DNA of 56,105 nucleotides from contig CAIXRH010000075.1 in NCBI GenBank assembly GCA_903921785.1, forward strand, positions 1 to 56,105, given 5' to 3'. The stretch comes from an uncultured Pseudomonadota bacterium (GTDB lineage Bacteria > Myxococcota_A > UBA796 > SXON01). Position numbers and translations under genes: made by a program. Of the stretch, positions 6,890 to 47,919 are shown in pieces. The notes under the pieces were generated by a model. The model saw only the letters and a list, made by a program, of their open reading frames with translations. It searched no databases and was not told the DNA's origin. Position 1 is the stretch's first letter, and the number at the start of each line of letters is the position of its first letter.

Positions 6890-7141
6890 CTAATCAGAGT
6901 TGCGATCCCCGCTCGCGGCGGTCTCGGTCACCCCGGCGGAGCCGCGGGAGAGAACGAGGATTCGGGCGTCGGCAGCGTCGAGGCGTTCGTGGCACTCGCG
7001 GACGAGCCCCACGCCTTCTTCGAAGAGGCGCAGGGCGTCGTCGAGCGGGAGGTCCCCTGACTCGAGCTTCTGCACGCGTCCCTCAAGCTCCTTGAGGGCG
7101 GCTTCGAACGAACGTGCCTCGGGCTTCGCCTCGCCGCTCAT
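6890..7141 (-). CDS. xseB: Exodeoxyribonuclease VII small subunit
   Basis: The 83-residue product matches XseB along its length: SFEAALKELEGRVQKLESGDLPLD, then LRLFEEGVGLVRECHERL and the short C-terminal tail. XseB binds the large subunit XseA to form the single-strand exonuclease VII. Its ATG overlaps the stop of the helicase-associated gene upstream (ATGA), so it is coupled to the XPB pair; xseA is not in the window. The link to two helicase-type genes suggests a DNA-processing context. Confidence 0.93.
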   Translation of the reverse strand: MSGEAKPEARSFEAALKELEGRVQKLESGDLPLDDALRLFEEGVGLVRECHERLDAADARILVLSRGSAGVTETAASGDRNSD

Positions 7142-9432
7142 CCCGGCCCTCCGGCGCGGCCGTCGGTGGTCTGGGCGCGCTCAATCTGCGCCACGGAGTA
7201 GCTCAGGCGCATGCCCGCCTCGACGTCGAACGCCACGAGCACGGCGGCGCCTTCGCGGTTGAGGGCGATGCGCTCGGGGACCACCAGGACCGCCTTGCGG
7301 CTGTCGTCCTTCAGCGAGTGGTACGTCATGTGCAGGCCGAGGTTGCCCTTGATGGCCTTCTCCAGGATGGCCCGGACCTCCTGCGGGTTGGCGCGGGGCG
7401 GACCCTTGGGCGGGCGCTTCTTCTTCTCCTGCATCTCCACGGAGGAGCCGGGGATGGCGTGCAGGTCGGCGGGGAGGGTGTCGGCGCGTTGGGCGCGGGC
7501 GACAGGATCTTCCCGGATTTCCCGAGCCTCGGCGAGGAGGTGGTGCAGCCGCTCGCGGCTCTGGGCCGCCTCGTCATCGGCCGGGTACTTGCGGATCTCC
7601 TTGCCGGGATTGAAGCCAGCCTCCATCAGCACGATGGTGATCTCGGGGAGCCGCTTCCGGTCGACCGCGTAGACGCCAGGGGCGAAGCGGTGGACGATGA
7701 ACGGCCGCAGCGCGCGGAGCGACTCGAACCGCTTGATGTGGGCGCGGTGCACGGTGAGCGCGGTGATCTCGTGGAACTCCACGTCGCCATCGCCGCCCAT
7801 CCAGGAGCGCAGGGTCGTCTCGACGTTCTGGGGCAGGCCGATCTGGCTGTACTCCCGGAGGAACTCCAGGAGCTCCTCGCGGCGCCAGCCCTTCTTCAGC
7901 GCCTGCTCGATGCTGATCTCGGTGATCTTGTAGGTGTTTGCCCGATCGCAGCCCATCAGCTCCGAGATCTCGCCGAGGCGGAACAGGAGCACCGGCGCGA
8001 GGCCGGCGGGGGCGATGATCTCGTAGTTCGGGGTGAGGTAGAACTTGGCGAACCCCTCGTCGTCCGGGGGGTCGAGGAGCGCGAGGCCCCGCGGGGAGAG
8101 CCGGTAGAACTTCTGCTGGCCCCAGACGCCGAGCTCCAGAACGCCGCAGTTGGTGAGCGCGGAGAAGCTGTAGCCTTCGCGGTCCGCGCCGCGCGGAGAG
8201 GTGTACAGGCGCTTGTGGAAACGTTCGCGCCAGTCTTCACCCCGCTTCCAACGCCGGTAGATGGCCATGAGCGGCGCTTCAGGCACCCACTCGCCCTTGG
8301 CGGAGTGCACCGCCCAGAGGACCCATTCGGCCATGCCCTGGCGCTTCTCCAGCGCGCGGAAGACGAGGTCCCGCTGGTCTTCGGGCTCCAGCGTGAGCCA
8401 CTCCTCCACGACCTCGCGGTTGACGGAGACCCGGTCGCCGCGGAGCTCGATCATCCCGTGCATCATCAGGAAGTCGTAGTGGAGGTTGAACACCTCCGAC
8501 TCCGGCGCCCAGAGCTGCGCGAAGAACTTGTCGAGGTCCTCCTTCTGGGCCTTGAACACTTCCTGCCGCTGCGTGAGCTTCGGCGGGTGCTGGTCCATGT
8601 AGGTGGCCAGGGTGGCCAGGGAGAAGTCGAGCGGCGGACAGAACGGCCGCTGGTCGACGACGCGGATCTCCTCGTGCTGGAAGGTGGGCAGCTCGAGCTC
8701 GGGGCCGAGGTGCTCCAGCAAGGGGTCGATCAGCGGCTCGGGGACGAGGTAGTAGAAGCCTTCCTCCACGGGGCCGCTGCCGCAGACGAGGCCGCGATCC
8801 GCGAGGACCTGCATGGTGCGGACCCAGTCGTGCTCGCGGCCGCCGAGCATCAGGACCAGCTCGCGGTGGAAGTCGTCGGCGTGGGCGAGGCCGCCGCACT
8901 GGATGAGCGCGGCGAGGGCCTGGCGGTCCCGCGGCTGCATCTGGTAGAGCAGGCCGCTGAGGCGGCTGCCCTGGGCGAGGGCACGCACGGTGAGCTGCAC
9001 GACCCGCTCGTGCTCGCCGACGCGCACCGGCTGGCCGCCGAGCGCGCGATACAGCGCGTGCACCAACGGCTCCGGCATCTTCATGAAGTAGGTGGCCAGC
9101 TCATCGATCTCGCCGCGGCTCATGCGGCGGCGGCGGGCGAGGCCAGCGGTGGGCTTCCACTTCTTGCGGTGCACCCGGGGCTTCACCACCATTTTGCCGG
9201 AGGAAGGCACGCCCGCGCCGGGGGCCTCGAAGTCGTCCCGGAAGACCCGACGCCCGCGGCGCCCACGCGCGCCGGCTTCGCCCTCGCCGCCCTCATTCTC
9301 CTGCGGAGCGAGCACGTCTGCCGAGGCGCCTTCGCCCCCGCCGCCGCCCCCCCGACGCCGACGCCGCCGGCGCCGCCGGCGCCCTCCGCCTTCGCCGTCC
9401 ACCGGTGCCGTGTCTTGTCCTTCATTGCTCAT
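7138..9432 (-). CDS. Helicase-associated (XPB/Ssl2 N-terminal, helicase_C_3) protein with WYL-like C-terminus
   Basis: This 764-residue protein opens with a tract of ten arginines and Gly/Glu-rich low complexity, a likely nucleic-acid-binding tail. A long helical region follows. Around residues 460-550 lies FYLTPNYEIIAPAGLAP and downstream sequence matching the helicase_C_3/XPB N-terminal domain. The last about 70 residues (LHMTYHSLKDD through LVAFDVEAGMRLSYSVAQIERA) resemble a WYL-type ligand or nucleic-acid-binding fold. There is no Walker motif, so it is not itself a helicase. It lies 22 bases downstream of the XPB gene, an arrangement also known in Mycobacterium (Rv0861c-Rv0862c), and overlaps xseB by ATGA. 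It is probably an XPB partner or regulator. Confidence 0.8.
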   Translation of the reverse strand: MSNEGQDTAPVDGEGGGRRRRRRRRRRGGGGGGEGASADVLAPQENEGGEGEAGARGRRGRRVFRDDFEAPGAGVPSSGKMVVKPRVHRKKWKPTAGLARRRRMSRGEIDELATYFMKMPEPLVHALYRALGGQPVRVGEHERVVQLTVRALAQGSRLSGLLYQMQPRDRQALAALIQCGGLAHADDFHRELVLMLGGREHDWVRTMQVLADRGLVCGSGPVEEGFYYLVPEPLIDPLLEHLGPELELPTFQHEEIRVVDQRPFCPPLDFSLATLATYMDQHPPKLTQRQEVFKAQKEDLDKFFAQLWAPESEVFNLHYDFLMMHGMIELRGDRVSVNREVVEEWLTLEPEDQRDLVFRALEKRQGMAEWVLWAVHSAKGEWVPEAPLMAIYRRWKRGEDWRERFHKRLYTSPRGADREGYSFSALTNCGVLELGVWGQQKFYRLSPRGLALLDPPDDEGFAKFYLTPNYEIIAPAGLAPVLLFRLGEISELMGCDRANTYKITEISIEQALKKGWRREELLEFLREYSQIGLPQNVETTLRSWMGGDGDVEFHEITALTVHRAHIKRFESLRALRPFIVHRFAPGVYAVDRKRLPEITIVLMEAGFNPGKEIRKYPADDEAAQSRERLHHLLAEAREIREDPVARAQRADTLPADLHAIPGSSVEMQEKKKRPPKGPPRANPQEVRAILEKAIKGNLGLHMTYHSLKDDSRKAVLVVPERIALNREGAAVLVAFDVEAGMRLSYSVAQIERAQTTDGRAGGPG

Positions 9433-9454
9433 CGGCGTTCCTCAGCGGCTCCAG

Positions 9455-11128
9455 TCAGTTGGAGCCTTCCTGGATGTAGTAGCGATAGCCCTGCTCGGTG
9501 AGGAAGAGTTGCCGTTTCATGGCGAACTCCTGCTCCTTGGTCTCCCGAGTGATCAGGCTGTAGAAATGGGCACCGTCCTTCTTCGGGCGGAGCACGCGGC
9601 CAAGCCGTTGGGCCTCCTCCTGGCGGGAGCCGAAGGAGCCCGACACCTGCACCGCGACGTTGGCGTCCGGCAGGTCGATCGAGAAGTTCGCGACCTTGCT
9701 CACGATGAGGAGCTTGATCTCGCCCTTGCGGAACTTGCCGAAGAGCACGTCGCGCTGAGGGCCGGGCGTCTCTCCGGTGATGAGCGGCGCCTTGTAGCGG
9801 CGGGCGATCTCGTGGAGTTGGTCGAGGTAGGTGCCGATGACCAGCACGTTGTCGGCCTGGTGGCGCTTCAAGAGGGTGTCGAGCACCTCGAGCTTCGCCG
9901 GGTTCACCGCGGCGAGACGGAACTTCTCTCCCTCGCGCGCCTTCTCGTAAGCCAGCGCGGCGCCGTTCTTCCACCCGACCCGGACCTCGTAGCACTTCGC
10001 TTCGGCGATGAAGCCCTGCTCTTCGAGGGACTGCCACGCCATGTCGAAGCGCTTGGGGCCGACGAGCGAGAACACATCGCCCTCGCGGCCGTCTTCGCGG
10101 ACGAGGGTGGCGGTGAGGCCCAGGCGGCGGCGCCCCTGGAGCTCGGCGGTGGCGCCGAAGACCGGGGCCGGGAGCAGATGCACCTCGTCGTACACGATGA
10201 GGCCCCAGTTCTGGTCTTCGAAGAGGTGGAGGTGCGCGAACTGCGCCTCCTTGGACTGCCGCCAGGTGAGGATCTGGTAGGTGGCGACAGTGACATCGCG
10301 GATGTTCTTCGTGTCGCCGGTGTAGGCGCCGACCTGACCCTCGGTGAGGTTGGTCTTGTCGAGGATCTCGCGGACCCACTGGTTCACGGCCGCGCCGTTG
10401 GTGGCGAGGATCAACGTCTTCTGCTTGACCTTGGCCATCGCGGCGATGGCCACGATGGTCTTGCCGGCGCCGCAGGGGAGCACGATGACGCCGTTGCCGC
10501 CCGCCGGCCGGCCATCCTGGAACCACCGATCGGCGGAGGTGCGCTGGTAGTCGCGGATGAGGAAGGGCTTGCCGTTCTTCATCACTTCGGCGGTCTGGAT
10601 GTCGAGCGGATCGCCTTCGATGAAGCCGGCGAGGTCCTCCACCGGCCAGCCGGCCGCGAGCATCCGCTGCTTGAAGATGCCGCGGTGGCCGCCCTGGATC
10701 GCGAGGTACCGCTTGCCATCCTCGACGAGGAGCTCCTTGACCGTCTTGACCTGACCGATGAGCTTCGCCACGTAGGCGGTGGTGAATTCCAGCCGGAGGA
10801 GCTTCCGATCGTCGGGGTGCTGAAGGAGCTTGACCAGCCCGTACCGCTCGATGGTCTCCGAGACCTGGGCGAGGACATCCGGGGGAACGTCGAACTTCGA
10901 CCACTCCCGCAGCCCGTCGACGATCTCGGCCTTGGTCATGCCGCTGGACGCGGCGTTCCACAGGGTGAGCGGGTGGATCCGGTAGGTATGGAGGTGCTCC
11001 GGAGACGTTTCCAGCTCGGCGAACCGAGAGAGGAAATCACGCACCCCCTCGTACTGCGGGTGCTTCGTCTCCAGAAGGACTTTTCCATCCCCCTGGACAA
11101 TGAGGGGGTTGTCAGGCCTGACGTGCAT
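9455..11128 (-). CDS. XPB/Rad25-type DNA repair helicase
   Basis: At 557 residues this is a full-length bacterial XPB. It carries a damage-recognition-like N-terminal part (LIVQGDGKVLLETKHP), Walker A LPCGAGKTIV near residue 215, a DEVH box near residue 312, the LGLTATLVREDGRE segment that contains the XPB RED motif, and the C-terminal helicase motif EEAQRLGRVLRPK. The family is a superfamily 2 3'-5' helicase or translocase; in eukaryotes it opens DNA during nucleotide excision repair. The ATG at 11128 is the first in frame after the divergent intergenic region. It leads the XPB / helicase_C_3 / xseB operon. Confidence 0.93.
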   Translation of the reverse strand: MHVRPDNPLIVQGDGKVLLETKHPQYEGVRDFLSRFAELETSPEHLHTYRIHPLTLWNAASSGMTKAEIVDGLREWSKFDVPPDVLAQVSETIERYGLVKLLQHPDDRKLLRLEFTTAYVAKLIGQVKTVKELLVEDGKRYLAIQGGHRGIFKQRMLAAGWPVEDLAGFIEGDPLDIQTAEVMKNGKPFLIRDYQRTSADRWFQDGRPAGGNGVIVLPCGAGKTIVAIAAMAKVKQKTLILATNGAAVNQWVREILDKTNLTEGQVGAYTGDTKNIRDVTVATYQILTWRQSKEAQFAHLHLFEDQNWGLIVYDEVHLLPAPVFGATAELQGRRRLGLTATLVREDGREGDVFSLVGPKRFDMAWQSLEEQGFIAEAKCYEVRVGWKNGAALAYEKAREGEKFRLAAVNPAKLEVLDTLLKRHQADNVLVIGTYLDQLHEIARRYKAPLITGETPGPQRDVLFGKFRKGEIKLLIVSKVANFSIDLPDANVAVQVSGSFGSRQEEAQRLGRVLRPKKDGAHFYSLITRETKEQEFAMKRQLFLTEQGYRYYIQEGSN

Positions 11129-33564: not shown

Positions 33565-34266
33565 ATGCTCCCCGTGCTCGCGCTCCTGGCGTCCTCCCCG
33601 ATCCTCGTCTCCCGCGCCGAGGCCAAGGATGGGGCCTTTCAGCTCAGCCCGCGGGTGAATCGGCGCTACCAGGACGTGATCGTCACCGTGAGCGGCACCC
33701 GTTGGCGCGGCAAGATCACGGCGCGCGGCGACATCTACAAGATCCGCCTCGCGGACCAGTCCGAGATCGCCATCCCGAAGGAGGAGATCGTCTCGGTGAC
33801 GCGCGAGCTGGACCCCGGCCTGCTCCACAACGGCCAGTGGTGCGCCCGCTTCACCCCCGGCTTCGAAGCCGCCTTCGTGATCGCCGACACCGACGGTGGC
33901 CCGCAGTACGGGCTCTACGGGGAGTTCGCCATCGCGCACAACTTCGGCGGCTCCTTCGAGCCGGAGCTCACCCTCACGGTGACCCCGGTCGGCCCCAAGG
34001 ACGGCGCGGTGACCGCCGAGGTGGGCCTCGGCATCCGCTACTACCTCCAGCCCACGAGCAAGTGGAAGGCGTACACCAACACCCAGGTCATCCTCTACGG
34101 AACGCGCGGCGATCTGGGCTTGCGCACCGGCCCCGGCTTCATGTGGGACCTCTCTCCAGGGTTCGGAATCGGCACCAATCAGGGGGTGACGTTGCTGATC
34201 CAGGACAATCCCGACGCCGTCGCGGTGGGGTACCACGCCGGGTTGACTCTCCAGGGCCGCTTCTGA
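33565..34266 (+). CDS. Secreted outer-membrane-type beta-barrel protein
   Basis: This 233-residue protein has a signal peptide (MLPVLALLASSPILVSRAEA), an N-terminal region with the strand DVIVTVSGTRWRGKI, and a C-terminal half of alternating strands (EPELTLTVTPVGP, GYHAGLTLQGRF) ending in Phe, as in outer-membrane barrels. The final strand and terminal Phe support recognition by the BAM complex. No specific family is identified. It lies between the TPR membrane protein and a two-component cluster. Confidence 0.7.
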   Translation: MLPVLALLASSPILVSRAEAKDGAFQLSPRVNRRYQDVIVTVSGTRWRGKITARGDIYKIRLADQSEIAIPKEEIVSVTRELDPGLLHNGQWCARFTPGFEAAFVIADTDGGPQYGLYGEFAIAHNFGGSFEPELTLTVTPVGPKDGAVTAEVGLGIRYYLQPTSKWKAYTNTQVILYGTRGDLGLRTGPGFMWDLSPGFGIGTNQGVTLLIQDNPDAVAVGYHAGLTLQGRF

Positions 34267-34300: not shown

Positions 34301-35386
34301 ATGTCTCTGGCAAGCAAGCTCTCCCCGCAGGCCGTCCGAAGTCACCGCGTCCTCGTGGTGGACGACGAGGCGCTGAACCTCCAGGTCTTCGACTACAATT
34401 TCGGAGAGGAGTTCAACCTGCTTTTCGCGGGAAACGCGGAGGACGCGCTGGCGATCCTCGCCCGGGAGCACGTCGCCGTCGTCATCGCGGATCATCGCAT
34501 GCCGGGCCGCCTCGGGCTCGACCTGCTGGCCGAGATCTCCGTTACGCGTCCGGAAGTGGTGCGGGTGCTGCTCACCGCCCATGCCGACGTTCCCCTTTTG
34601 GTGGACGCCCTCAACCGCGGCGTGTTGTTCCGCTACATCTCGAAGCCGTGGACCGCGGACTCGATGCGGCAGGACATGCACCACGCCCTCGAACAGCACG
34701 TTCTGCAGGCGGAGCACCTCCGGCTGGTGCACCTCGCCTCCGATCAGCTGCACCCTCCCGAGTCGGTGGCGGCGGCGCTGGAGGCGGAGCTCGCCCGGGC
34801 GCGGGAAGCGGTCCGCGCGGCGGCCTCCGCGATCCAGGGCGGCGACGCATCCACAGCCTCCTTCGCGCTCTCTCGCGCCGCGGCGACGCTCGACCCGCTC
34901 CTGGCGGATGCCCGTCGGGTGGCCACGCGGCGCTCTCCCAGTTGGCTCCCGCTCGACCCGGGACACGCGCTGCACGCCGCGCTCACTTCGGTGGCAGCCC
35001 GCGCCAGCGCCGCGGGGGTGGAGGTGCAGCTGATCGCCGACGCCGCGCTTCCCCGCATCTTCGGCGCGCGCGACGCCGTCGCCGAGACCCTCGCGGCGCT
35101 CCTCCAGAACGGGGTGGATGCGGCGGCGCTCGCCCCGGCACCCCGCTGGGTCGAGGCTTCGGCCTCGGCCGATGGCCAAGCGGTGCGCATCCGGGTTCGG
35201 GACAGCGGATCGGGGTTCGAGCCCTCCGCCGCCACGCGGACGTTTCACAGCGGCCGGGGGCGGGCGGGCCTCGGGCTGGCCGTGGTGAGAGCCATCACCG
35301 AGGGCCACGGCGGGGAGCTCGACCTGTCGAGGGCTCCGCACGCAGAGGTCAGCGTCATCTTCCCCGCGGCGCCTGGGCGAGGATGA
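34301..35386 (+). CDS. Response regulator fused to a histidine-kinase-type ATPase domain without phospho-His
   Basis: The 361-residue protein starts with a receiver domain: acidic pair D21-D22, phosphoacceptor D64 in IADHRMPG, Thr in LLTAHAD and Lys in ISKPW. A helical linker of about 90 residues follows. The C-terminal about 110 residues hold a HATPase_c-like module with N-box QNGVDAA, VRDSGSGFEP and GLGLAVVRAITEGHGGEL. I see no H-box (no His-Glu-x-x-x-Pro), so it could not autophosphorylate in the usual way; it may bind ATP or act on a partner. Its stop overlaps the PilZ fusion gene by ATGA. A TG-A-TAGCCT extended -10 lies upstream (34264-34272). Confidence 0.85.
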   Translation: MSLASKLSPQAVRSHRVLVVDDEALNLQVFDYNFGEEFNLLFAGNAEDALAILAREHVAVVIADHRMPGRLGLDLLAEISVTRPEVVRVLLTAHADVPLLVDALNRGVLFRYISKPWTADSMRQDMHHALEQHVLQAEHLRLVHLASDQLHPPESVAAALEAELARAREAVRAAASAIQGGDASTASFALSRAAATLDPLLADARRVATRRSPSWLPLDPGHALHAALTSVAARASAAGVEVQLIADAALPRIFGARDAVAETLAALLQNGVDAAALAPAPRWVEASASADGQAVRIRVRDSGSGFEPSAATRTFHSGRGRAGLGLAVVRAITEGHGGELDLSRAPHAEVSVIFPAAPGRG

Positions 35387-38172
35387 ACGCGATCCCGAGG
35401 CGCACCAACCCGCGCCGCCGCACCATCCTGCGGCTGGAGGAGCCGGGCGCGCGGGAACATCGGGTGCTGAACCTGTCCGTGAACGGGTTGTTCGTGGAGG
35501 GAGACGTGCTCCCGACCTCCGGGGTGGGGTCCCTCTGGCTTCCGGGCTCCGAGCGGCCCCTCGAGGTCCGCTTCCGCAACATCTTCCCGCGCAGCGGCGG
35601 CCACGGCGTGCAGTTCGACCCCGCGGACCGTCGCGGGCGGCAGTTGCTCCACGACTACGTGACCCACCACCACGAAGAGGCGCGGCTACGGCAGCTCGAG
35701 GCGCGCCTCGGCGGTCCCTCCAACCTCAAGCCCCTCGGCGAAGAGGTGAGCACCCGCGCGGTCTTCCAGCCGCTGGTGGACAGCCAGGCGATCATCGACG
35801 TGTACGCGTCGGGAGACGCCGCCCCGGTGCGCGCGAGGTTGACCGCGTTGCACCCGCTCGTCTCGCGGCTGGAGCTCGAGGTGGATCGCCACGCGCCCAT
35901 GCCCCGGCCGTACGAGCCGTTGTTCCTGGCGCTCCGCCGCGGCCACGCCACCTACCTCGCCGACACCGTGGTGGAGTCAACCGCGGGGGGGCGGGTGACG
36001 GTGATGCTCCCCGAGCGGGTGTTCCTCCCCGAGCGGCGCAGCCTCGATCGGGAGCCCACCCACGGCCGGCAGGTGCTGCGCCTCGACGTGGACGGCGCCC
36101 GTCTCGGCGAGGTCGTGGACATCGACGCCAACGGCATCGCCGCCCGGTTTTTCGTGGGCGACGCGGCGCGCATCGTCCGCCGCGCCGAGCTCCAGGGGAG
36201 CTACCTGGGCGACGGCGAAGCCGAGCGGCCCTCCGGTGCGCTTCGGGTGGCGTGGCATCGCCCGGTGGGCCAGGGGCAGGTGCACATCGGGTTCCAGCGC
36301 GTACGCGCGCGGGTGGTCGTGGAGCCGACGCGACTGCTCGATCCGTACCAGCCGCCTGGCCGGCTGAGCAGCTTTTTCACCGCCGTGGGCGCGGCCGTGG
36401 GGCAGGCACTCGATCGTGTCGGGCTCTCGCCTGTCCCAGCCCCGCGGACCTGGGTGATGGAGGCCGAGACCGGGCGGCCCCTGGTTCACCTCGTCAATGC
36501 TACGTTCGACCTTGAGCATCCTCCGCCTGGGACGCTCCACGTCGTGCTGATCCCGCCCCCGTATGGCCGCCGAAAGGAGACCCCCTCCGCGTTGGCGCTG
36601 ACCCTCCTCGCCGGCTTCCGTGCCGCGGGCGAGCCGCTCCTGGTCTTGCGCTGGGATGGCCGGAACCACCTCGGCGAGTCGTGGCGGGACCCGGAGCTCA
36701 CCGCGCCCGAGCACGCGATGCTCCATTACACGCAGAGCCAGGCGGTCGCGGACCTCGCGGACACCCTGGCGAACCTCCGCCGGCGTTTCCCCACGCAAAC
36801 CCTGCGGGTGGCGGCGATCACCTTCTCCCTCGCCGCGGTGGCGGTGCGCCGGTACCTGGCCTCCGGCGGCGAAGGGATCGATCTGTGGGTGGCGCCGATG
36901 GGCGCCGCCGACGCCCGCGACACCATCCGCAACGGCAACGGCGGCGTGGACCTCGTGGGGGAGAAACAACGGGGGGCGACGCTCGGGGTGCGGCTGATCC
37001 AGGGCCACCTCGTGGACGCCGATCGCCACTGCGCCGACCTCATCGAGAGCGGCTTCGCCGACCTCGAGGATGCCCGACGGGACTTCGCGCTCATCCGCCA
37101 GCCGGTCGTCTGGCTCTGTGGGATGCACGACTTCTGGGTGAACACCCACCGGGTCCACGATGTCTTGTCGGTCCCAGGGCCAGGCGACCGGGAGCTCATC
37201 GAGGTCCCCACCGGCCACTTCGTTCGCAGCAGCACCGAAGCGCTCGCGACCTTTCGCATCGTCACCGAGCGGGTGCTTGAGCGCCTCGCAGGCAAGCGAA
37301 TCGTGGCGAAGAGCCCCGCGCCTCACCTCTTGCTACGCACGGGCCAACTGGAGCGGCAGCGGCTCGCGCCGGTGGCCTTCGACGCCCGCGCTTGGTGGCG
37401 GGATTACCTCCTCGGCAACCGCGAGAACCCGCTCGGCTTCGACCTCATCGCGCTGACCGACGAGTACGTGCAGCTCATCGACATCCAGGTGGAGCTCCTC
37501 GACGTTCACCCGGGTCATCGGGTCGCCGACCTCGGGTGTGGCACCGGAAACGTGCTCTCCGCGCTCGTCCATCTCCCGCCTGCGCGCTTGGAGGGGGTCA
37601 CCATCGAGGCGGTGGACCTCGTCCCGGAAGCCCTCGATCGCGCGCGCGAGGCCGTGCGCGCCGCGGCCAAGTCTTTCGGGTTCGTCCCGCCTCCGGTGCG
37701 CTACCAGGCGGTGGACCTCACCCTCCGGGATCGTCCGAATCTCCCCTACGCGGATGGCTCCCTCGATCGGGTGATCCTCTCGCTGGTGCTCCCGTACCTC
37801 GACGATCCCCACGCGTTGTTGGAAGAAGTGCACCGGGTGCTCCGCCCAGGGGGCGTACTGGTGGTGTCCACCCTGCGTCCCGACGTCGACATGTCCGGGC
37901 CCGTCGCCCGGCTTCGCCAGAAGTTGGAGCGCGGCGGGACCCAGGTCGTGGAGGGGTGGACGTCCGGGCGGCTCACCGTGGCGCTCCGAGACTTCCTCAA
38001 TCGCGCCGCGACGCTGATGGACCTGGAAGCCGAAGGGCGCTTCCATTTCCACGAACGAAGGGAGCTGGACGAGCTCCTCGCGTCTCACCACTTTGGCGAC
38101 CGACAGGTCGTCGAGACGTTCGGAGTTCCCCCATTGGCTCTTGTCGCTGTCGGGAATAAGTCGGCGGGGTAA
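35383..38172 (+). CDS. PilZ / LuxD-like acyl hydrolase / SAM methyltransferase fusion
   Basis: From the ATG overlapping the upstream stop, this is a 929-residue three-part protein. Residues about 1-100 form a PilZ domain with the c-di-GMP motif R13-x3-R17 and N30-x-S32-x2-G35. A second, degenerate PilZ-like stretch (VVDIDANGIAARFF) lies near 240. Residues about 385-640 resemble a LuxD/alpha-beta hydrolase: VLRWDGRNHLGES, candidate nucleophile S482 in TFSLAAV, D583 in GMHDFW and H612 in PTGHFV. Residues about 700-929 form a class I methyltransferase with DLGCGTG at 716-722 and a late DRVILSLVLPYL. I predict c-di-GMP-controlled transfer or release of an acyl group plus methylation. The joint substrate is unknown; I know of no named family with this layout. 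Confidence 0.85.
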   Translation: MNAIPRRTNPRRRTILRLEEPGAREHRVLNLSVNGLFVEGDVLPTSGVGSLWLPGSERPLEVRFRNIFPRSGGHGVQFDPADRRGRQLLHDYVTHHHEEARLRQLEARLGGPSNLKPLGEEVSTRAVFQPLVDSQAIIDVYASGDAAPVRARLTALHPLVSRLELEVDRHAPMPRPYEPLFLALRRGHATYLADTVVESTAGGRVTVMLPERVFLPERRSLDREPTHGRQVLRLDVDGARLGEVVDIDANGIAARFFVGDAARIVRRAELQGSYLGDGEAERPSGALRVAWHRPVGQGQVHIGFQRVRARVVVEPTRLLDPYQPPGRLSSFFTAVGAAVGQALDRVGLSPVPAPRTWVMEAETGRPLVHLVNATFDLEHPPPGTLHVVLIPPPYGRRKETPSALALTLLAGFRAAGEPLLVLRWDGRNHLGESWRDPELTAPEHAMLHYTQSQAVADLADTLANLRRRFPTQTLRVAAITFSLAAVAVRRYLASGGEGIDLWVAPMGAADARDTIRNGNGGVDLVGEKQRGATLGVRLIQGHLVDADRHCADLIESGFADLEDARRDFALIRQPVVWLCGMHDFWVNTHRVHDVLSVPGPGDRELIEVPTGHFVRSSTEALATFRIVTERVLERLAGKRIVAKSPAPHLLLRTGQLERQRLAPVAFDARAWWRDYLLGNRENPLGFDLIALTDEYVQLIDIQVELLDVHPGHRVADLGCGTGNVLSALVHLPPARLEGVTIEAVDLVPEALDRAREAVRAAAKSFGFVPPPVRYQAVDLTLRDRPNLPYADGSLDRVILSLVLPYLDDPHALLEEVHRVLRPGGVLVVSTLRPDVDMSGPVARLRQKLERGGTQVVEGWTSGRLTVALRDFLNRAATLMDLEAEGRFHFHERRELDELLASHHFGDRQVVETFGVPPLALVAVGNKSAG

Positions 38173-38174
38173 CG

Positions 38175-40790
38175 ATGCTCCCGCCCCGTCGCCCGGTCTC
38201 TCATGAGGCGTTCCATGCGGACGTGCTCGCCTCTACGGTTCAGAACCTCAGGTTCGCCGCGACGATCGGCATGTTCGTGGTTCCCGGGTTCTGGCTCCTG
38301 GACCGCCTGGTGGTCCCCGATCTCGCCTGGCTGTTCTTGCAGTGGCGCCTCGGGGCTTCGTGCATCCTCGCCGTGGTGGTGCTGCTCACCCGCACCCGCG
38401 CGGGACGGGAGTCCGTGGTGGCCCTCGGCTACGCGGCGCTCTTCAGCGCGGCGCTCCCGGTCTCGGCGATGGTCGCGTACATCAACCCCGGTGTCTCGCC
38501 GTACTACGCGGGGTTGGACCTCGCGATGTTGTTCGCGGGGGTGTTGTTTCCCTGGAATCCGGCCCACACCGCGGCCGTCAACAGCATCCTCGTCGCCAGC
38601 TTTCTCCTCCCGGTCGCGATGCACGGCGGCCCCTCCGATCTGGGCGCGTTCGTCAACAACACGTTCTTCCTCCTGGTCACCGCGGCCGTGTCCACGGTGG
38701 CGAACTGGTCCTTGTACAAAGAACATCGCCGGCGGTTCGATCTGTCGTGGTCGTTGGAGATGCGCTCGGCCGACCTCGCGGACGCCAACGAGCGGCTTCG
38801 GGAGGCCGACGAGCTCAAAAGCCGGTTCTTTGCCAATGTCTCCCACGAGCTGCGCACGCCGCTGACGCTCGCGCTCTCCCCCGTGGAGGCGCTGCTCGCC
38901 GACCCCACGCTCCCGCCCCGGCTTCGGGAGACGTTCCACGCGCTCCACGTCGATCTCCTCGCGCTTCGCCGGCGGATCGAGGAGCTCCTCGACCTCGCCC
39001 GGCTCGACAGCGGGCGCATGCGCGTGGTGCGCGCGCCCGTGGACCTCCCGCGGCTGGTCTCCGACGTGGTCACCGCGGCGCGGCCGTTCGCGATGCGCCA
39101 GCACATCGAGCTGGACATGGAGGCCGAACCCGGGCTGCCCCCCGTCGCGGGGGACGCCGGCGTGCTGGAGCAGATCGCCTTCAACCTCATCTCCAACGCG
39201 CTGAAGTTCACCCCGTCCGGAGGTCGCGTGTGGGTGAGCGTCAGCCGGGAGGCCTCGAACCTTCGGCTCACCGTCCGTGACACCGGACCGGGGCTCTCCG
39301 AGGCGGACCAGTCGGAGCTGTTCACCCGCTTCGGGCGCACCACCACCGCCCCGGCCGCGCGTGGCTCCGGGCTCGGGCTCGCGTTGGTGAAGGAGTTCGC
39401 GGAGCTCCACGACGGACGCGTGGCGGTCCGCTCCTCGCCCGGAGAGGGCGCCGCGTTCGACGTCTGGCTCCCCGTGGGGCCCGGCACCCTGGAGGCGGTG
39501 CCCGCCACGACCCTGCCGTGGCAGCTCTCGATGGACTTCGAGAGCGAGATGGAGCATGCGGTGCCGCGCGCCGAGCCGATGCCCGTGGCGGGCCTGGATC
39601 GTCCGCAAGTGCTGGTGGTCGACGACAACGCTCGCCTCCGCGACTTCGTCGCCCGCTCCTTGGCCGACGAGTACACGGTGGTCCAGGCGGTGGATGGCGT
39701 GGACGCCCTCGCGAGGATCGAGGTGAGCATCCCCATGGTGGTGGTCGCGGACGTGATGATGCCGCGCCTCGACGGCCGCGGGCTGCTCACCGCCATCCGC
39801 CGCGACCCCCGCCTCGCCCACCTGCCCGTGGTGCTGCTGACCGCGCACGGCGACGCCGATCTGCGCGACGAGGCGCTCGAGCTCGGCGCCTCCGACTTCC
39901 TCACCAAGCCGTTCTCGGTGCGGGAGCTCCGGGCGCGGGTGCGGAACTTCGTGGCCTTGCGGGCCGCGCAGCAGGCGTTGGCGGAGGCGAACACCGCCCT
40001 GGGGAACTCCCTGGCAGAGACGCAGGCGGCGCAGCGCCGGGTCGTGCGTGCGGAGAAGCTCGCGGCGATCGGTCAGCTCGCCGCCGGCATCGGGCACGAG
40101 GTCAAGAACCCGGTGAACTTCCTGCTCAACTTCGCGCGGCCCTCGGCGGTGCGGGTGGCCGCCCTCGCGGATCGCCTCCAGGCCGACCCCGCCGTGGCCG
40201 GGGAGCTCGGCCGCGTGCGCGAGGCCCTCACGCGCATCGTCGAAGGCGGCGAGCGCATCGTGCACATCGTCGATGGCCTCCAGGCCTTCGCGCGGGGCGG
40301 CGGCGCCCGGGTGGAGGTCGACGTGGACACGGAGGTGCGCAGCGCCTGCCGGATGGTCGAGGTTTCGCTCCGCGACAACGTGCGCCTCGTGCTCGATCTG
40401 GGCGACGTCGGCACCGTTCTCGGGAGCCCGGTGGGCGTAGGGGCAGTGGTGCTCAACCTCGTCACCAACGGGATCCAGTCCATGCCGCACGGCGGGACGC
40501 TGACGGTCATCACCCGTGGAGACGCGTCCCGGGTCACCCTCCGGGTGCGCGACACCGGGGTGGGGATGTCCGCAGAGGTCTTGGGACGGATCTGGGATCC
40601 GTTCTTCACCACGCGCCCGGCGGGGGAGGGCCTCGGCCTCGGGCTCGCGTTGGTCCACCGGCTCGTCTACGAAGAATTTGGCGGGAGGATCCTGGTGGAG
40701 TCCACGGAGGGAGAGGGGACGGTGTTCACCGCCGAGGTGCCACGGTCCTTGCCGCGGTTCGGGGGCCAGGACCTCGCGCGCACGGCGTGA
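38175..40790 (+). CDS. Hybrid histidine kinase with two kinase cores flanking a receiver
   Basis: This 871-residue membrane protein has an N-terminal sensor of about six hydrophobic segments (residues 25-190) with no named sensory domain. It then has a first kinase core with H224 in SHELRTPL, N-box SNALKFTP and G-boxes; a receiver with acidic VVDDN and phosphoacceptor D526 in VADVMMPR; and a second kinase core with H641 in GHEVKNPV, N-box TNGIQSMP and GLGLGLALVHRL. Two full kinase modules in one chain are unusual. It starts two bases after the PilZ fusion stop, so the receiver-ATPase protein, the PilZ fusion and this kinase form one operon. Confidence 0.92.
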   Translation: MLPPRRPVSHEAFHADVLASTVQNLRFAATIGMFVVPGFWLLDRLVVPDLAWLFLQWRLGASCILAVVVLLTRTRAGRESVVALGYAALFSAALPVSAMVAYINPGVSPYYAGLDLAMLFAGVLFPWNPAHTAAVNSILVASFLLPVAMHGGPSDLGAFVNNTFFLLVTAAVSTVANWSLYKEHRRRFDLSWSLEMRSADLADANERLREADELKSRFFANVSHELRTPLTLALSPVEALLADPTLPPRLRETFHALHVDLLALRRRIEELLDLARLDSGRMRVVRAPVDLPRLVSDVVTAARPFAMRQHIELDMEAEPGLPPVAGDAGVLEQIAFNLISNALKFTPSGGRVWVSVSREASNLRLTVRDTGPGLSEADQSELFTRFGRTTTAPAARGSGLGLALVKEFAELHDGRVAVRSSPGEGAAFDVWLPVGPGTLEAVPATTLPWQLSMDFESEMEHAVPRAEPMPVAGLDRPQVLVVDDNARLRDFVARSLADEYTVVQAVDGVDALARIEVSIPMVVVADVMMPRLDGRGLLTAIRRDPRLAHLPVVLLTAHGDADLRDEALELGASDFLTKPFSVRELRARVRNFVALRAAQQALAEANTALGNSLAETQAAQRRVVRAEKLAAIGQLAAGIGHEVKNPVNFLLNFARPSAVRVAALADRLQADPAVAGELGRVREALTRIVEGGERIVHIVDGLQAFARGGGARVEVDVDTEVRSACRMVEVSLRDNVRLVLDLGDVGTVLGSPVGVGAVVLNLVTNGIQSMPHGGTLTVITRGDASRVTLRVRDTGVGMSAEVLGRIWDPFFTTRPAGEGLGLGLALVHRLVYEEFGGRILVESTEGEGTVFTAEVPRSLPRFGGQDLARTA

Positions 40791-40793
40791 GCG

Positions 40794-41909
40794 CTACGCT
40801 GCGCCCGCCCACTCGAGCGCCGGTCGACCTACGTGGTACCCCTGGATGAGGTGAGCCCCGAAGCGCGCGGCCGCGAGCTCCTCCTCCTCGGTCTCCACCC
40901 CCTCCGCGATGAGCTCGGCTCCGGTGGCGCTCGCGAAGCTCGCGAGGAGCTGAATGAGGCGCTGCTTTCGGGCTTCGCGGTCCATGTTGCGGACGATGGA
41001 CATGTCGGCCTTGATGAACGCGGGCTGAAGCTCCGCGAGCACCGCGAGGCTGTTGTAGCCGGAGCCGATGTCGTCCACCGCGATGCGGAAGCCACGGCGG
41101 GTGAGCTCGTTGAGCACGTCTTCCGCACCTTCGAAGTCGGCGATCGGCGCGCGCTCGGTGATCTCCAGCACGACCCGGTCCGCCCAGGGCTCCAGCGGGG
41201 CGAACTGCTCGAGCACGGTGGCGTCGCCGAATTGGGCGGGGTGGGTGTTCACGAAGACATCGAGCGCCGGGGGCAGCCGCTGGAGCCAGCCGGCGGCGAG
41301 GCGATTCACGCACACTCCGAGGTCGGAGACGCGGGAACAGCGCTCCACGGCCTCCAAGACCGAGAGGGGGCCGGTGAGGCGCGGGTGGCGGCTGCGGAGC
41401 AAGAGCTCCACGGCGACCGGCAGGCGCTCCGTCGGCCGGACGATCGGCTGCCAGGCGAGGCCGAGCATGTCGCCCTCCACACACTCCTGGAACATCCGGG
41501 AGTGCAGCGCCCGATCGGCCGCGCGGTCGATGGCGCTGCGGACAAACCCCGCCGTCTGCTCCAGGCCGCGGATCTCCGCCTCCAGCTGCTCGACCTGGAA
41601 CGGCCGGTGGAGGAGCCGATGCGCGAGTCCTTCGGACACGGCGGCCTCCCCGTACGCGCCGCCGGGGCCGACGTGGAGCAGTCGCATCACCCCGGGGAAC
41701 GTGGAGCGCGCTTCGCCGAGGAGCGTGAGCACGGGTTCCACGCCGAGCGCGTCGGAGGCGACCAGCACGTCCACCCGCGAGGTGGCGAGCCGCTCCAGGG
41801 CTTCCGCGGGCTCCCCCACGGCGTCCACCACGTAGCCGGCGGCGGTGAGCACGCGCGCGAGCGTGGCGCGCATGTTTGCGTCACGATCAGCGAGGAGAAC
41901 GTGGGGCAT
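40794..41909 (-). CDS. Receiver-EAL protein, predicted c-di-GMP phosphodiesterase
   Basis: The ATG at 41909 gives 371 residues; the open frame upstream lacks homology. The N-terminal about 120 residues have the shape of a receiver domain (VLLADRDANMRATL), but the acceptor region reads VLVASDALG, with Asp displaced, so phosphorylation is doubtful. The EAL domain has ELLLRSRHP in place of EALLR, NTHPAQF, LEITE, AVDDIGSGYNSL, IKAD, EGVETEEE and QGYHVGRP: the metal and catalytic residues look preserved, suggesting an active enzyme hydrolysing c-di-GMP. It faces the histidine kinase gene with stops three bases apart, so it could oppose PilZ activation of the neighbouring fusion. Confidence 0.88.
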   Translation of the reverse strand: MPHVLLADRDANMRATLARVLTAAGYVVDAVGEPAEALERLATSRVDVLVASDALGVEPVLTLLGEARSTFPGVMRLLHVGPGGAYGEAAVSEGLAHRLLHRPFQVEQLEAEIRGLEQTAGFVRSAIDRAADRALHSRMFQECVEGDMLGLAWQPIVRPTERLPVAVELLLRSRHPRLTGPLSVLEAVERCSRVSDLGVCVNRLAAGWLQRLPPALDVFVNTHPAQFGDATVLEQFAPLEPWADRVVLEITERAPIADFEGAEDVLNELTRRGFRIAVDDIGSGYNSLAVLAELQPAFIKADMSIVRNMDREARKQRLIQLLASFASATGAELIAEGVETEEEELAAARFGAHLIQGYHVGRPALEWAGAA

Positions 41910-45840: not shown

Positions 45841-45877
45841 CCCTCCCGGCCCTCCTCAACCCTCGCGAGCCACGACC
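45841..45877 (-). repeat. Interspersed repeat family A, copy 3
   Basis: On the minus strand it reads GGTCGTGGCTCGCGAGGGT and ends GGCCGGGAGGG. It covers the last codons and stop of the tgt fusion gene, with the convergent uvrB stop 31 bases away. Confidence 0.7.
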
Positions 45878-47919
45878 GATGTCGGCGGCGCCGCTGCGGC
45901 CGCTTCCGCGGGGCGAGTCGCCGGCTGCCACTGCGGGTGCTGTTCGATGGCCTGCGTGAACGCCGCGCGCGCGCTCTCGGGCACGTCCGCGGGCCATCGC
46001 GCGCCCGACCGTCGCCACTTCTCCAGGAGCGCCGATCCGAAGAGCGCGCCAGGGCCGGGCTGCGTCCAGGCCACGGTGGTCTCGGTCTTCGGGCCGGTGG
46101 CCACCCCCGGGCCGACGAAGAAGCCGGCGCCGAGCATCGCGGCGCGGGCCGCCGTGGAGTTGGTGTAGGTGTAGAGTGCGGCTGGCTTCGAACACGCGGC
46201 CTTCACCCTTGCGAAGGCCGCGAGCGTCCAGAGGGGGCCGTCCGCCTTGAACGAGAACGGATCGTAGAGGATCACGTCGGGGGCCGGGGCGGCGGCGAGG
46301 GTCCCGAGGACGTCGCCGAGGTGGAGCGTCCAGCGGATCGGGCGGGTGCGGCTGGTCCACGCGCGGCCTGCGAGGAGCGCGGCGGGGCCGGCGTGGCGCA
46401 GCGCGGGGAAGTGGTCGTGGTGGGCGGCGGCGAGGCGGAGGGCGTCGAGGTCGATCTCGAAGCTCACGAGGTGCAGCAGCCGCGTCCCTTTCCCCGCCTC
46501 CCAGGCGCGGATCACCGCCATGGCGTTGGTGCCTGCGCCGAGGCCGACGTCCCAGACCACCAGCTCGGGTCCGTCGCCATCCGCCAGCGCGGGGAGGCCG
46601 GGCTGGTCCACGTAGAGGCGGCGGGCTTCGTCTTCGGGCGCGCTCACCGAGTGCATCACCTCGCCGGAGCGGGTGTCCTGGATGCTCCGGAACGGCGGGG
46701 CGCCCTCCCAGCCCGGCCGCTCGACGAGGGCGAAGTGTCCCAGCGTCGTCGGTGGAGGGCCCCGGGTGCGTCCGCGCTTGGGCGCCACCGGCGGTGCGTC
46801 TTCGTCCGGGCGCTCCAGCCGTTCGCGCTCTTCGGCGTACAGCGAGAGGAAGCTGCCCGCATCGAGCGCCGCCCGGATGCGGCGCATCAGGTCGAGCCAG
46901 AAGTGGAGGTTGTGCAGCCCGAGCAGCGTCCACGCGAGGGGCTCGCGCGCGTCGAACAGGTGCCGGAGCCAGGCGCGACTGTAGCGGGCGCAGACCTCGC
47001 AGGTGCAGGCGGGGTCCAGCGGCGTGTCGGCGAGGCGGTAGACGCCGCGGCGGAGGTCGAGCCGTCCGACGCGGGTGTAGACCCGGCCGCGTTGCGCGAG
47101 GGCGGTGGGGAGGATGCAGTCGAAGAGGTCCACCCCGCGGTGCACCCCCTCCAGGAGGTCGAGCGGGGTGCCGACGCCCATCAGGTAGCGGGGGCGGTCC
47201 CCGGGCAGCCGCTCCGTCACCAGCTCGGTCATGTCCTCCCGTTCGGCCTTGCTCTCGCCCACTGCCAGCCCGCCGATGGCGAAGCCGTCGAACGTGCCCT
47301 GAGTGAGGGTGTCGGCGCTCTCGCGGCGGAGGTTGGCGTGCGTCGCGCCCTGGACGATGGCGAACAGCCCCATCGGGTCGTCGCCGCGGGCGGCGAGGCA
47401 GCGGGCGGCCCACCGGTGGGTCCGGTCCATCGCGTCGCGCGCGCGGGCTTCGTCCACGGTGGAGGGCACGCAGTGGTCGAGCACCATCGCCACGTCGGAG
47501 CCGAGGACCCGCTGCGCGGCGATGCAGCTCTCAGGCGTCAACCCGAGCCGCTGGCCGCTCGTGGGGTGGCGGAGCCGCACCCCCTCCTCGGAGACCTCGG
47601 CGTTCTCTCCCAGCGAGAACACCTGGAAGCCGCCGGAGTCGGTGAGCAGCCCGCCGGACCAGCCCATGAATCGGTGCATCCCCCCCAGCTTCTCCACCAC
47701 CTCCAACCCGGGTCGTTGGGCGAGGTGCCAGGTGTTGGCGAGGAGCATGGTCGCCCCCGCGGGGGCCAGGCCCTCCGTGCGCTGCGCGCGCACCGAGCCA
47801 GCGGTGGCCACCGGCATGAACTGGGGCGTCTCGATCACTCCGTGGGCGGTGTGCAAGCGACCGCGGCGGGCGCGCGTCCCGCCGATCCCGCTCGCCGCGA
47901 ACCTCGGCCGTCCGCTCAG
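45856..47919 (-). CDS. tgt: tRNA-guanine transglycosylase fused to an MnmC-like methyltransferase domain
   Basis: The first about 360 residues are Tgt: TPQFMPVAT, LTDSGGFQVFSL with the catalytic Asp, ARRGRLHT, LFDCILPT and the zinc site CTCEVC with a following His. After a linker, residues about 440-600 match the MnmC-like (DUF752) methyltransferase domain: VWDVGLGAGTNAM near 455, ILYDPFSFKADGPLW, and LYTYTNSTAARAAMLGAGFFV. Tgt swaps G34 for a queuine precursor; the MnmC domain methylates an aminomethyl group on U34. The homology extends before the TTG at 47856, into ARRGRL, so I place the start at CTG 47919, which overlaps the upstream stop (CTGA). No in-frame ATG or GTG exists there. The full length is about 687 residues. 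Confidence 0.85.
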   Translation of the reverse strand: MSGRPRFAASGIGGTRARRGRLHTAHGVIETPQFMPVATAGSVRAQRTEGLAPAGATMLLANTWHLAQRPGLEVVEKLGGMHRFMGWSGGLLTDSGGFQVFSLGENAEVSEEGVRLRHPTSGQRLGLTPESCIAAQRVLGSDVAMVLDHCVPSTVDEARARDAMDRTHRWAARCLAARGDDPMGLFAIVQGATHANLRRESADTLTQGTFDGFAIGGLAVGESKAEREDMTELVTERLPGDRPRYLMGVGTPLDLLEGVHRGVDLFDCILPTALAQRGRVYTRVGRLDLRRGVYRLADTPLDPACTCEVCARYSRAWLRHLFDAREPLAWTLLGLHNLHFWLDLMRRIRAALDAGSFLSLYAEERERLERPDEDAPPVAPKRGRTRGPPPTTLGHFALVERPGWEGAPPFRSIQDTRSGEVMHSVSAPEDEARRLYVDQPGLPALADGDGPELVVWDVGLGAGTNAMAVIRAWEAGKGTRLLHLVSFEIDLDALRLAAAHHDHFPALRHAGPAALLAGRAWTSRTRPIRWTLHLGDVLGTLAAAPAPDVILYDPFSFKADGPLWTLAAFARVKAACSKPAALYTYTNSTAARAAMLGAGFFVGPGVATGPKTETTVAWTQPGPGALFGSALLEKWRRSGARWPADVPESARAAFTQAIEQHPQWQPATRPAEAAAAAPPTSVVAREG

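Follow-up and report, generated by a model that had tools for sequence, protein, structure and literature searches.

A fused PilZ, LuxD-like hydrolase and methyltransferase protein as a candidate signal synthase beside a six-transmembrane kinase in Myxococcota_A

In the CqsA-CqsS and LqsA-LqsS systems, the synthase and the receptor are encoded together, and CqsA and LqsA are pyridoxal phosphate (PLP) enzymes that make alpha-hydroxyketones. The receptors CqsS and LqsS are six-transmembrane (six-TM) histidine kinases for lipophilic autoinducers (PMC4821796). The phc operon of Ralstonia, which makes and senses methyl 3-hydroxymyristate, encodes the methyltransferase PhcB, the kinase PhcS, which autophosphorylates at H230, the receiver and kinase protein PhcR, which has no DNA-binding domain, and the receiver protein PhcQ (PMC8578825, PMC11960443). 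Homologues of PhcB and PhcQ are present in Paraburkholderia (PMC6989110). Here, we analyze a gene for a protein of 929 amino acids (aa) that joins two PilZ modules, a LuxD-like hydrolase and a class I S-adenosylmethionine (SAM) methyltransferase in one chain. The gene lies on contig CAIXRH010000075.1 of an uncultured bacterium assigned to the GTDB phylum Myxococcota_A (assembly GCA_903921785.1), whose positions 1 to 56,105 were analyzed and are called the window below. A gene for a six-TM hybrid histidine kinase starts two bases past the stop codon of the enzyme gene. We lean towards the view that the enzyme makes the signal of a cell-cell signalling module that resembles Phc.

As in phcBSRQ, a methyltransferase gene in the window stands beside genes for a membrane histidine kinase and for receivers without DNA-binding domains (PMC8578825, PMC11960443), and the profile of its six-TM sensor also matches a kinase encoded in a Paraburkholderia operon with this gene layout. 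Unlike in Phc, the putative synthase carries a LuxD-like hydrolase and two PilZ modules in one chain with a class I methyltransferase of another kind, and a receiver is built into the hybrid kinase. We know of no link between the window system and PhcA. The window kinase is a six-TM histidine kinase like the receptors CqsS and LqsS, a likeness drawn from their description and not from their sequence. Overall, the module is built from known parts and is similar to Phc signalling, but its putative synthase is another, fused enzyme that may work like PhcB, although its sequence does not make it a PhcB. The first-pass annotation, a note made from the DNA letters and their translations, knew of no named family with this domain order. 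The searches made here agree, as they recovered no described family with this order, and our literature search returned no paper that combines PilZ, LuxD and a methyltransferase. A scan of GTDB contigs for named relatives gave a methyltransferase match only, and a plasmid search with the whole protein as the query gave only generic methyltransferases.

Architecture and conservation of the fused enzyme

The enzyme is encoded by a single intact frame, the ATG of which lies inside the stop codon of the upstream gene (ATGA overlap), and the AlphaFold model of the whole chain has a mean predicted local distance difference test score (pLDDT) of 84.3. The first-pass annotation had placed a PilZ domain, a LuxD-like hydrolase with a proposed triad and a class I methyltransferase in one chain. 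We found the same order in 27 aligned homologues, and all residues that it had numbered (R13, R17, N30, S32, G35, Ser482, Asp583, His612 and the DLGCGTG motif at 716-722) are at their positions. Its list of domains held for these three parts and overlooked the second PilZ module. It had also named structure prediction as a check, and the models obtained are confident and gave no sign of a missing hydrolase pocket.

Conservation was assessed in a first sample of 142 relatives, with long matches in 28 genomes besides the window's own, and in a second sample of 379 genomes of the phylum, 55 of which encode the hydrolase at E below 1e-60, in a single copy each. The alignment holds 27 full-length proteins from many families of the phylum, the others being 27-56% identical to the window protein, and Ser482, Asp583, His612, Lys398-Glu399, the glycines of GxGxG and the RRxxxR motif are invariant in it. 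The possibility that a frameshift or mis-joined genes created the fusion was rejected: every one of the 55 hydrolase matches lies inside a long frame once contig ends are allowed for, and a split version of the gene did not turn up in the 379 genomes. An independent hydrolase gene was found neither in the window's own genome nor among the strong matches of the phylum, and the own genome has no second copy of the enzyme. In the protein tree, the window genus clusters with distant families, apart from the second branch of the family to which it belongs, suggesting that the gene was likely transferred horizontally or duplicated long ago.

The hydrolase is LuxD-like in both profile and predicted fold. 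When its profile was compared with all PDB sequences, the best match was the LuxD myristoyl-ACP (acyl carrier protein) thioesterase 1THT (E 4.8e-9; next match 8.5e-5), and the predicted nucleophile and triad acid align with LuxD residues 114 and 211, which we take to be its catalytic positions. The model of the domain (pLDDT 94.7) again ranked 1THT first in a Foldseek search of 350,542 chains (E 6e-16, TM-score 0.78), as did the whole chain. Together, these models point to an alpha/beta hydrolase fold of the 1THT type with a predicted Ser-Asp-His triad. Nevertheless, the domain is not a member of the LuxD family PF02273 (Acyl_transf_2): the window hydrolase fails this Pfam model and is covered by no other Pfam family, and weak matches to PF02273 occur in 6 out of 27 homologues (best 2.2e-4). 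It also differs from LuxD in being fused to PilZ and methyltransferase domains and in having no luxCE partners near it. A Lux-type aldehyde pathway was considered and rejected, given that the LuxC-family matches of the genome are not near the enzyme and that this family also gives matches in 9 out of 14 control genomes.

The C-terminal region is a class I SAM methyltransferase by sequence: it matches Pfam Methyltransf_11 (PF08241, 3.4e-17), as do all 27 homologues, and has the invariant GxGxG glycines. In one branch (L051-L058, L025 and L034-L037), an insertion of about 60-110 residues lies in this domain, close to residue 780 of the window protein, and may cover a large substrate as a lid.

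The first PilZ domain has both motifs of a cyclic di-GMP (c-di-GMP) site, RxxxR and [D/N]xSxxG. Its score against PF07238 is 21.3 bits in the window protein (residues 6-93) and 22.7 bits in the genome search, where the PilZ was read with its neighbours in frame, compared to a Pfam cut-off of 22.5, and PF07238 matches 23 out of 27 homologues (best 1.9e-16). The second module, located between the first PilZ and the hydrolase with AlphaFold strands from about 137 to 307, resembles YcgR-type flagellar brake proteins in the order of its N-domain and PilZ barrel and in a linker motif of RRxxxR type, which is invariant in all 27 homologues. Unlike YcgR, it lies inside an enzyme, and its sequence match is weak. 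Because the best matches of its profile were PP4397-type proteins at E 0.04, and because Pfam PilZ matches this region in 10 out of 27 members, the label YcgR-like is a moderate claim. The second motif of this module is degenerate in the window (D246-I-D-A-N-G251, DIDANG) and in the window genus. Across the family, an N-terminal PilZ with [D/N]x[S/N/T]xxG and RxxxR is found in 20 of the 27 aligned proteins (the second arginine being changed in three), and in all seven proteins that do not have an N-terminal PilZ, the [D/N]xSxxG motif of the second PilZ is intact. At least one plausible site for c-di-GMP is thus retained in almost all members, although not always the same one. A degenerate second motif does not exclude binding, since PixB of Myxococcus xanthus binds c-di-GMP while both of its PilZ domains are without the serine of that motif (PMC8316039). 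PixB also resembles the window enzyme in fusing tandem PilZ modules to a transferase, in its case a GNAT acetyltransferase (PMC8316039), but it has other catalytic domains, no hydrolase and a different gene neighbourhood, and it acts in motility and development.

Pairing with a putative receptor kinase and the alternative methyltransferase

The enzyme is consistently paired with one type of putative receptor kinase. In 39 out of 41 loci, a six-TM hybrid kinase is encoded downstream of the enzyme, either directly or past one pump gene; in L094 it lies at the edge of the locus stretch. Profile A6, made from the six-TM domain, has matches in 135 of the 379 genomes, among them every genome with the enzyme. 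Within the window genus, seven genomes have both the enzyme and the kinase and four have neither, and this joint absence within one genus is telling. Co-occurrence across the sample is strong (Fisher 3e-29), a value that overstates independence as the genomes are related. At L093:9051-12005 (+), the C-terminal stretch of the six-TM kinase downstream of the enzyme reads, by eye, as an HD-GYP domain (a c-di-GMP phosphodiesterase).

We then read 20 loci with the kinase and without the enzyme. In 13 of these (L120, L122, L127, L129-L133, L135, L116, L118, L124 and L125), a protein that joins a PilZ-like domain to another methyltransferase (profile A7, with the methyltransferase motif KPLGYPGDY...GLFDYL) is encoded upstream of the kinase, either just before it or past a few genes, such as those for a CMAS methyltransferase and a pump; of the remaining loci, one has a weak A7 match and six end at a contig end. 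The A7 family is present in 76 of the 379 genomes. It occurs in 59 out of 80 genomes that have only the kinase, compared to 1 out of 55 with the enzyme (a partial copy on another contig), and 48 out of 58 full-length A7 copies lie less than 5 kb from the kinase. This distribution and this proximity indicate that the enzyme and the A7 family replace each other beside one receptor type and are almost mutually exclusive. The genome of the window itself has no A7 family member.

The closest plasmid relative of A7 is the first gene of a methyltransferase - kinase - receiver - receiver operon in Paraburkholderia graminis, and the A7 profile covers this methyltransferase nearly end to end (E 1.5e-83). 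The kinase of the same operon is matched by the A6 profile (E 1.1e-16), and its phosphoacceptor is His233, compared to H230 in PhcS (PMC11960443). Judging from these matches, the Paraburkholderia operon would be phc-like, with the layout of phcBSRQ, and the A7 family is apparently PhcB-like. A CMAS-family gene (cyclopropane synthase type) lies between the A7 gene and the pump in L116:7776-8642 (-) and L118:11461-12315 (-), and another lies upstream of the Paraburkholderia operon. In addition, a plasmid of the cyanobacterium Pseudanabaena carries an A7 methyltransferase gene beside genes for a response regulator and for a kinase that has the six-TM domain (L137:5920-8539), and the module is thus not confined to proteobacteria-like lineages.

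Gene neighbourhood and other features of the window

The features of the locus are collected in Table 1. The gene for the receiver-HATPase protein is present in all six loci of the same genus, and a similar gene in L050 and L056. Many enzyme operons also hold genes for receiver-HATPase or receiver-GAF-kinase proteins without DNA-binding domains. An MMPL/HAE3-type (MMPL/RND) pump gene lies between or beside the enzyme and kinase genes in one branch. Enzymes of c-di-GMP turnover adjoin the module in several branches, with an EAL protein in the window genus and GGDEF-EAL proteins in others. The 233-aa protein at the head of the gene run has no Pfam match.

Two further regions of the window were noted. 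A 666-aa frame at 45856-47856 (-) combines a queuine tRNA-ribosyltransferase (TGT, 3e-128) with a C-terminal Methyltransf_30 domain (1.3e-8) of the MnmC-type tRNA methyltransferase family, and is possibly a fusion of two enzymes that modify the wobble position of tRNA. At 7138-11128 (-), an XPB/RAD25-like helicase (ERCC3_RAD25_C, 8.5e-44) adjoins a 725-aa Helicase_C_3 protein, and Helicase_C_3 is also found at the N-terminus of this helicase.

Table 1. Coordinates of the enzyme, its predicted domains and its neighbours in the window
Feature	Position	Strand	Basis
233-aa conserved protein, likely exported, heads the gene run	33565..34266	+	Kept in all six same-genus loci, before the receiver-HATPase gene
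Receiver-HATPase protein without DNA-binding domain, overlaps the enzyme start	34301..35386	+	Pfam
Fused PilZ - YcgR-like PilZ - LuxD-like hydrolase - methyltransferase gene, 929 aa	35383..38172	+	Open frame; full-length homologues; AlphaFold
N-terminal PilZ domain, residues 6-93, R13xxxR17 and N30xS32xxG35	35398..35661	+	Pfam PF07238 at cut-off; motif kept in relatives
Second YcgR-like module (N-domain and PilZ barrel), about residues 121-307, RRxxxR 218-223	35743..36303	+	Conservation; profile; model strands
LuxD-like alpha/beta hydrolase domain, residues 352-645	36436..37317	+	PDB profile; domain model; Foldseek
Ser482 codon, predicted nucleophile	36826..36828	+	Invariant in 27 homologues; aligns with LuxD residue 114
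Asp583 codon, predicted triad acid	37129..37131	+	Invariant in 27 homologues; aligns with LuxD residue 211
His612 codon, predicted triad base	37216..37218	+	Invariant in 27 homologues
Class I SAM methyltransferase region with lead-in, residues 656-929	37348..38169	+	Pfam Methyltransf_11; homologues
SAM-binding motif DLGCGTG, 716-722	37528..37548	+	G718, G720 and G722 invariant
Six-TM hybrid histidine kinase, HisKA-HATPase-receiver-HisKA-HATPase, proposed product receptor	38175..40790	+	Pfam; six hydrophobic segments; neighbourhood
Kinase sensor domain with six TM segments (profile A6)	38232..38720	+	In 55/55 enzyme-positive genomes; Paraburkholderia match
EAL-domain protein, predicted c-di-GMP phosphodiesterase, convergent neighbour	40794..41873	-	Pfam EAL 7.8e-44; conserved in genus

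Proposed function and rival explanations

We propose that the LuxD-like serine hydrolase would take an acyl chain off a carrier (ACP, coenzyme A or a lipid) and that the fused methyltransferase would methylate what is released, with c-di-GMP gating the enzyme via PilZ. The simplest product would be a methyl ester comparable to those that Ralstonia makes from 3-hydroxy fatty acids. In relatives, this product may be exported by the MMPL/RND pump encoded with the synthase and the kinase. The six-TM hybrid kinase next to the enzyme would sense the lipophilic product and signal via its own receiver and the neighbouring receiver-HATPase or receiver-kinase protein, with an output that may be directed partly towards the c-di-GMP enzymes encoded nearby. 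The first-pass annotation had suggested either a diffusible signal or a modified lipid and had made no use of the neighbouring genes; the pairing with a six-TM receptor kinase and the presence of another PilZ-methyltransferase in the same slot now make the diffusible signal the better of its two guesses.

Several observations weigh against the enzyme being a Phc-like signal synthase. The link to Phc passes through an unnamed Paraburkholderia operon and not through the named PhcB and PhcS of Ralstonia, and the PhcB-like A7 profile gave no match to the window enzyme at E 1e-5. By its sequence the methyltransferase is of a generic kind, the first PilZ of the window protein sits at the Pfam cut-off and the second PilZ motif is degenerate. 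In the Foldseek search, lipases and cinnamoyl esterases reached TM-scores near that of LuxD, so that the fold leaves the substrate unsettled. Finally, 2 out of 41 loci (L096 and L104) have no kinase near the enzyme, both genomes carrying it elsewhere, and in the window the pump gene does not adjoin the enzyme.

The same parts could alternatively serve the remodelling of envelope lipids, in which the enzyme, responding to c-di-GMP, would deacylate and methylate an envelope lipid, the MMPL pump would move this lipid and the kinase would monitor the state of the membrane instead of a diffusible signal. The pump that adjoins the enzyme in one branch, the CMAS-type methyltransferase in the operons of L116 and L118 and a hydrolase fold that is also near monoglyceride lipases are consistent with such a role. 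However, a single kinase type that is strictly paired with the enzyme, and beside which one synthase is exchanged for another, looks like the receptor of a synthase, and the alternative occupant of the slot belongs with a phc-like operon, and we thus regard lipid remodelling as unlikely. The strict pairing would also suit a signalling adaptor, a protein that serves mainly as a c-di-GMP-dependent partner of the kinase through YcgR-like contact and whose enzyme domains do no more than modify a protein or a small regulatory substrate. PilZ and YcgR proteins often work through protein contact. Yet both enzyme domains keep their catalytic residues unchanged across deep divergence and the alternative occupant is a methyltransferase as well, which makes an adaptor improbable.

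The fusion of a methyltransferase to an esterase also recalls BioC and BioH, as does a weak similarity of the methyltransferase to BioC (TIGR02072, 44.1 bits), and the methyltransferase might write a carboxyl methyl ester that the hydrolase erases, with c-di-GMP setting the balance. We consider this highly improbable: the NCBIfam cut-off for BioC is 184.95 bits, many other methyltransferases of the genome score equally or higher, the hydrolase is nearest to LuxD and the neighbours are signalling genes instead of biotin genes. By the same scores and neighbours, a biotin-type BioH/BioC pair is unlikely.

We therefore retain the signal synthase as the preferred reading. More tentatively, the enzyme may represent a new class of autoinducer synthase, in which c-di-GMP-gated acyl release and methylation would be combined in one protein that displaced a PhcB-like synthase while a PhcS-like receptor was kept. 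If this is true, a signalling system in which c-di-GMP directly controls a lipid-signal enzyme would be widespread in the phylum, and the state of a second messenger and cell-cell signalling would converge in a single enzyme throughout it. The system would also be a clear case of a receptor being retained while its synthase is swapped for an unrelated enzyme.

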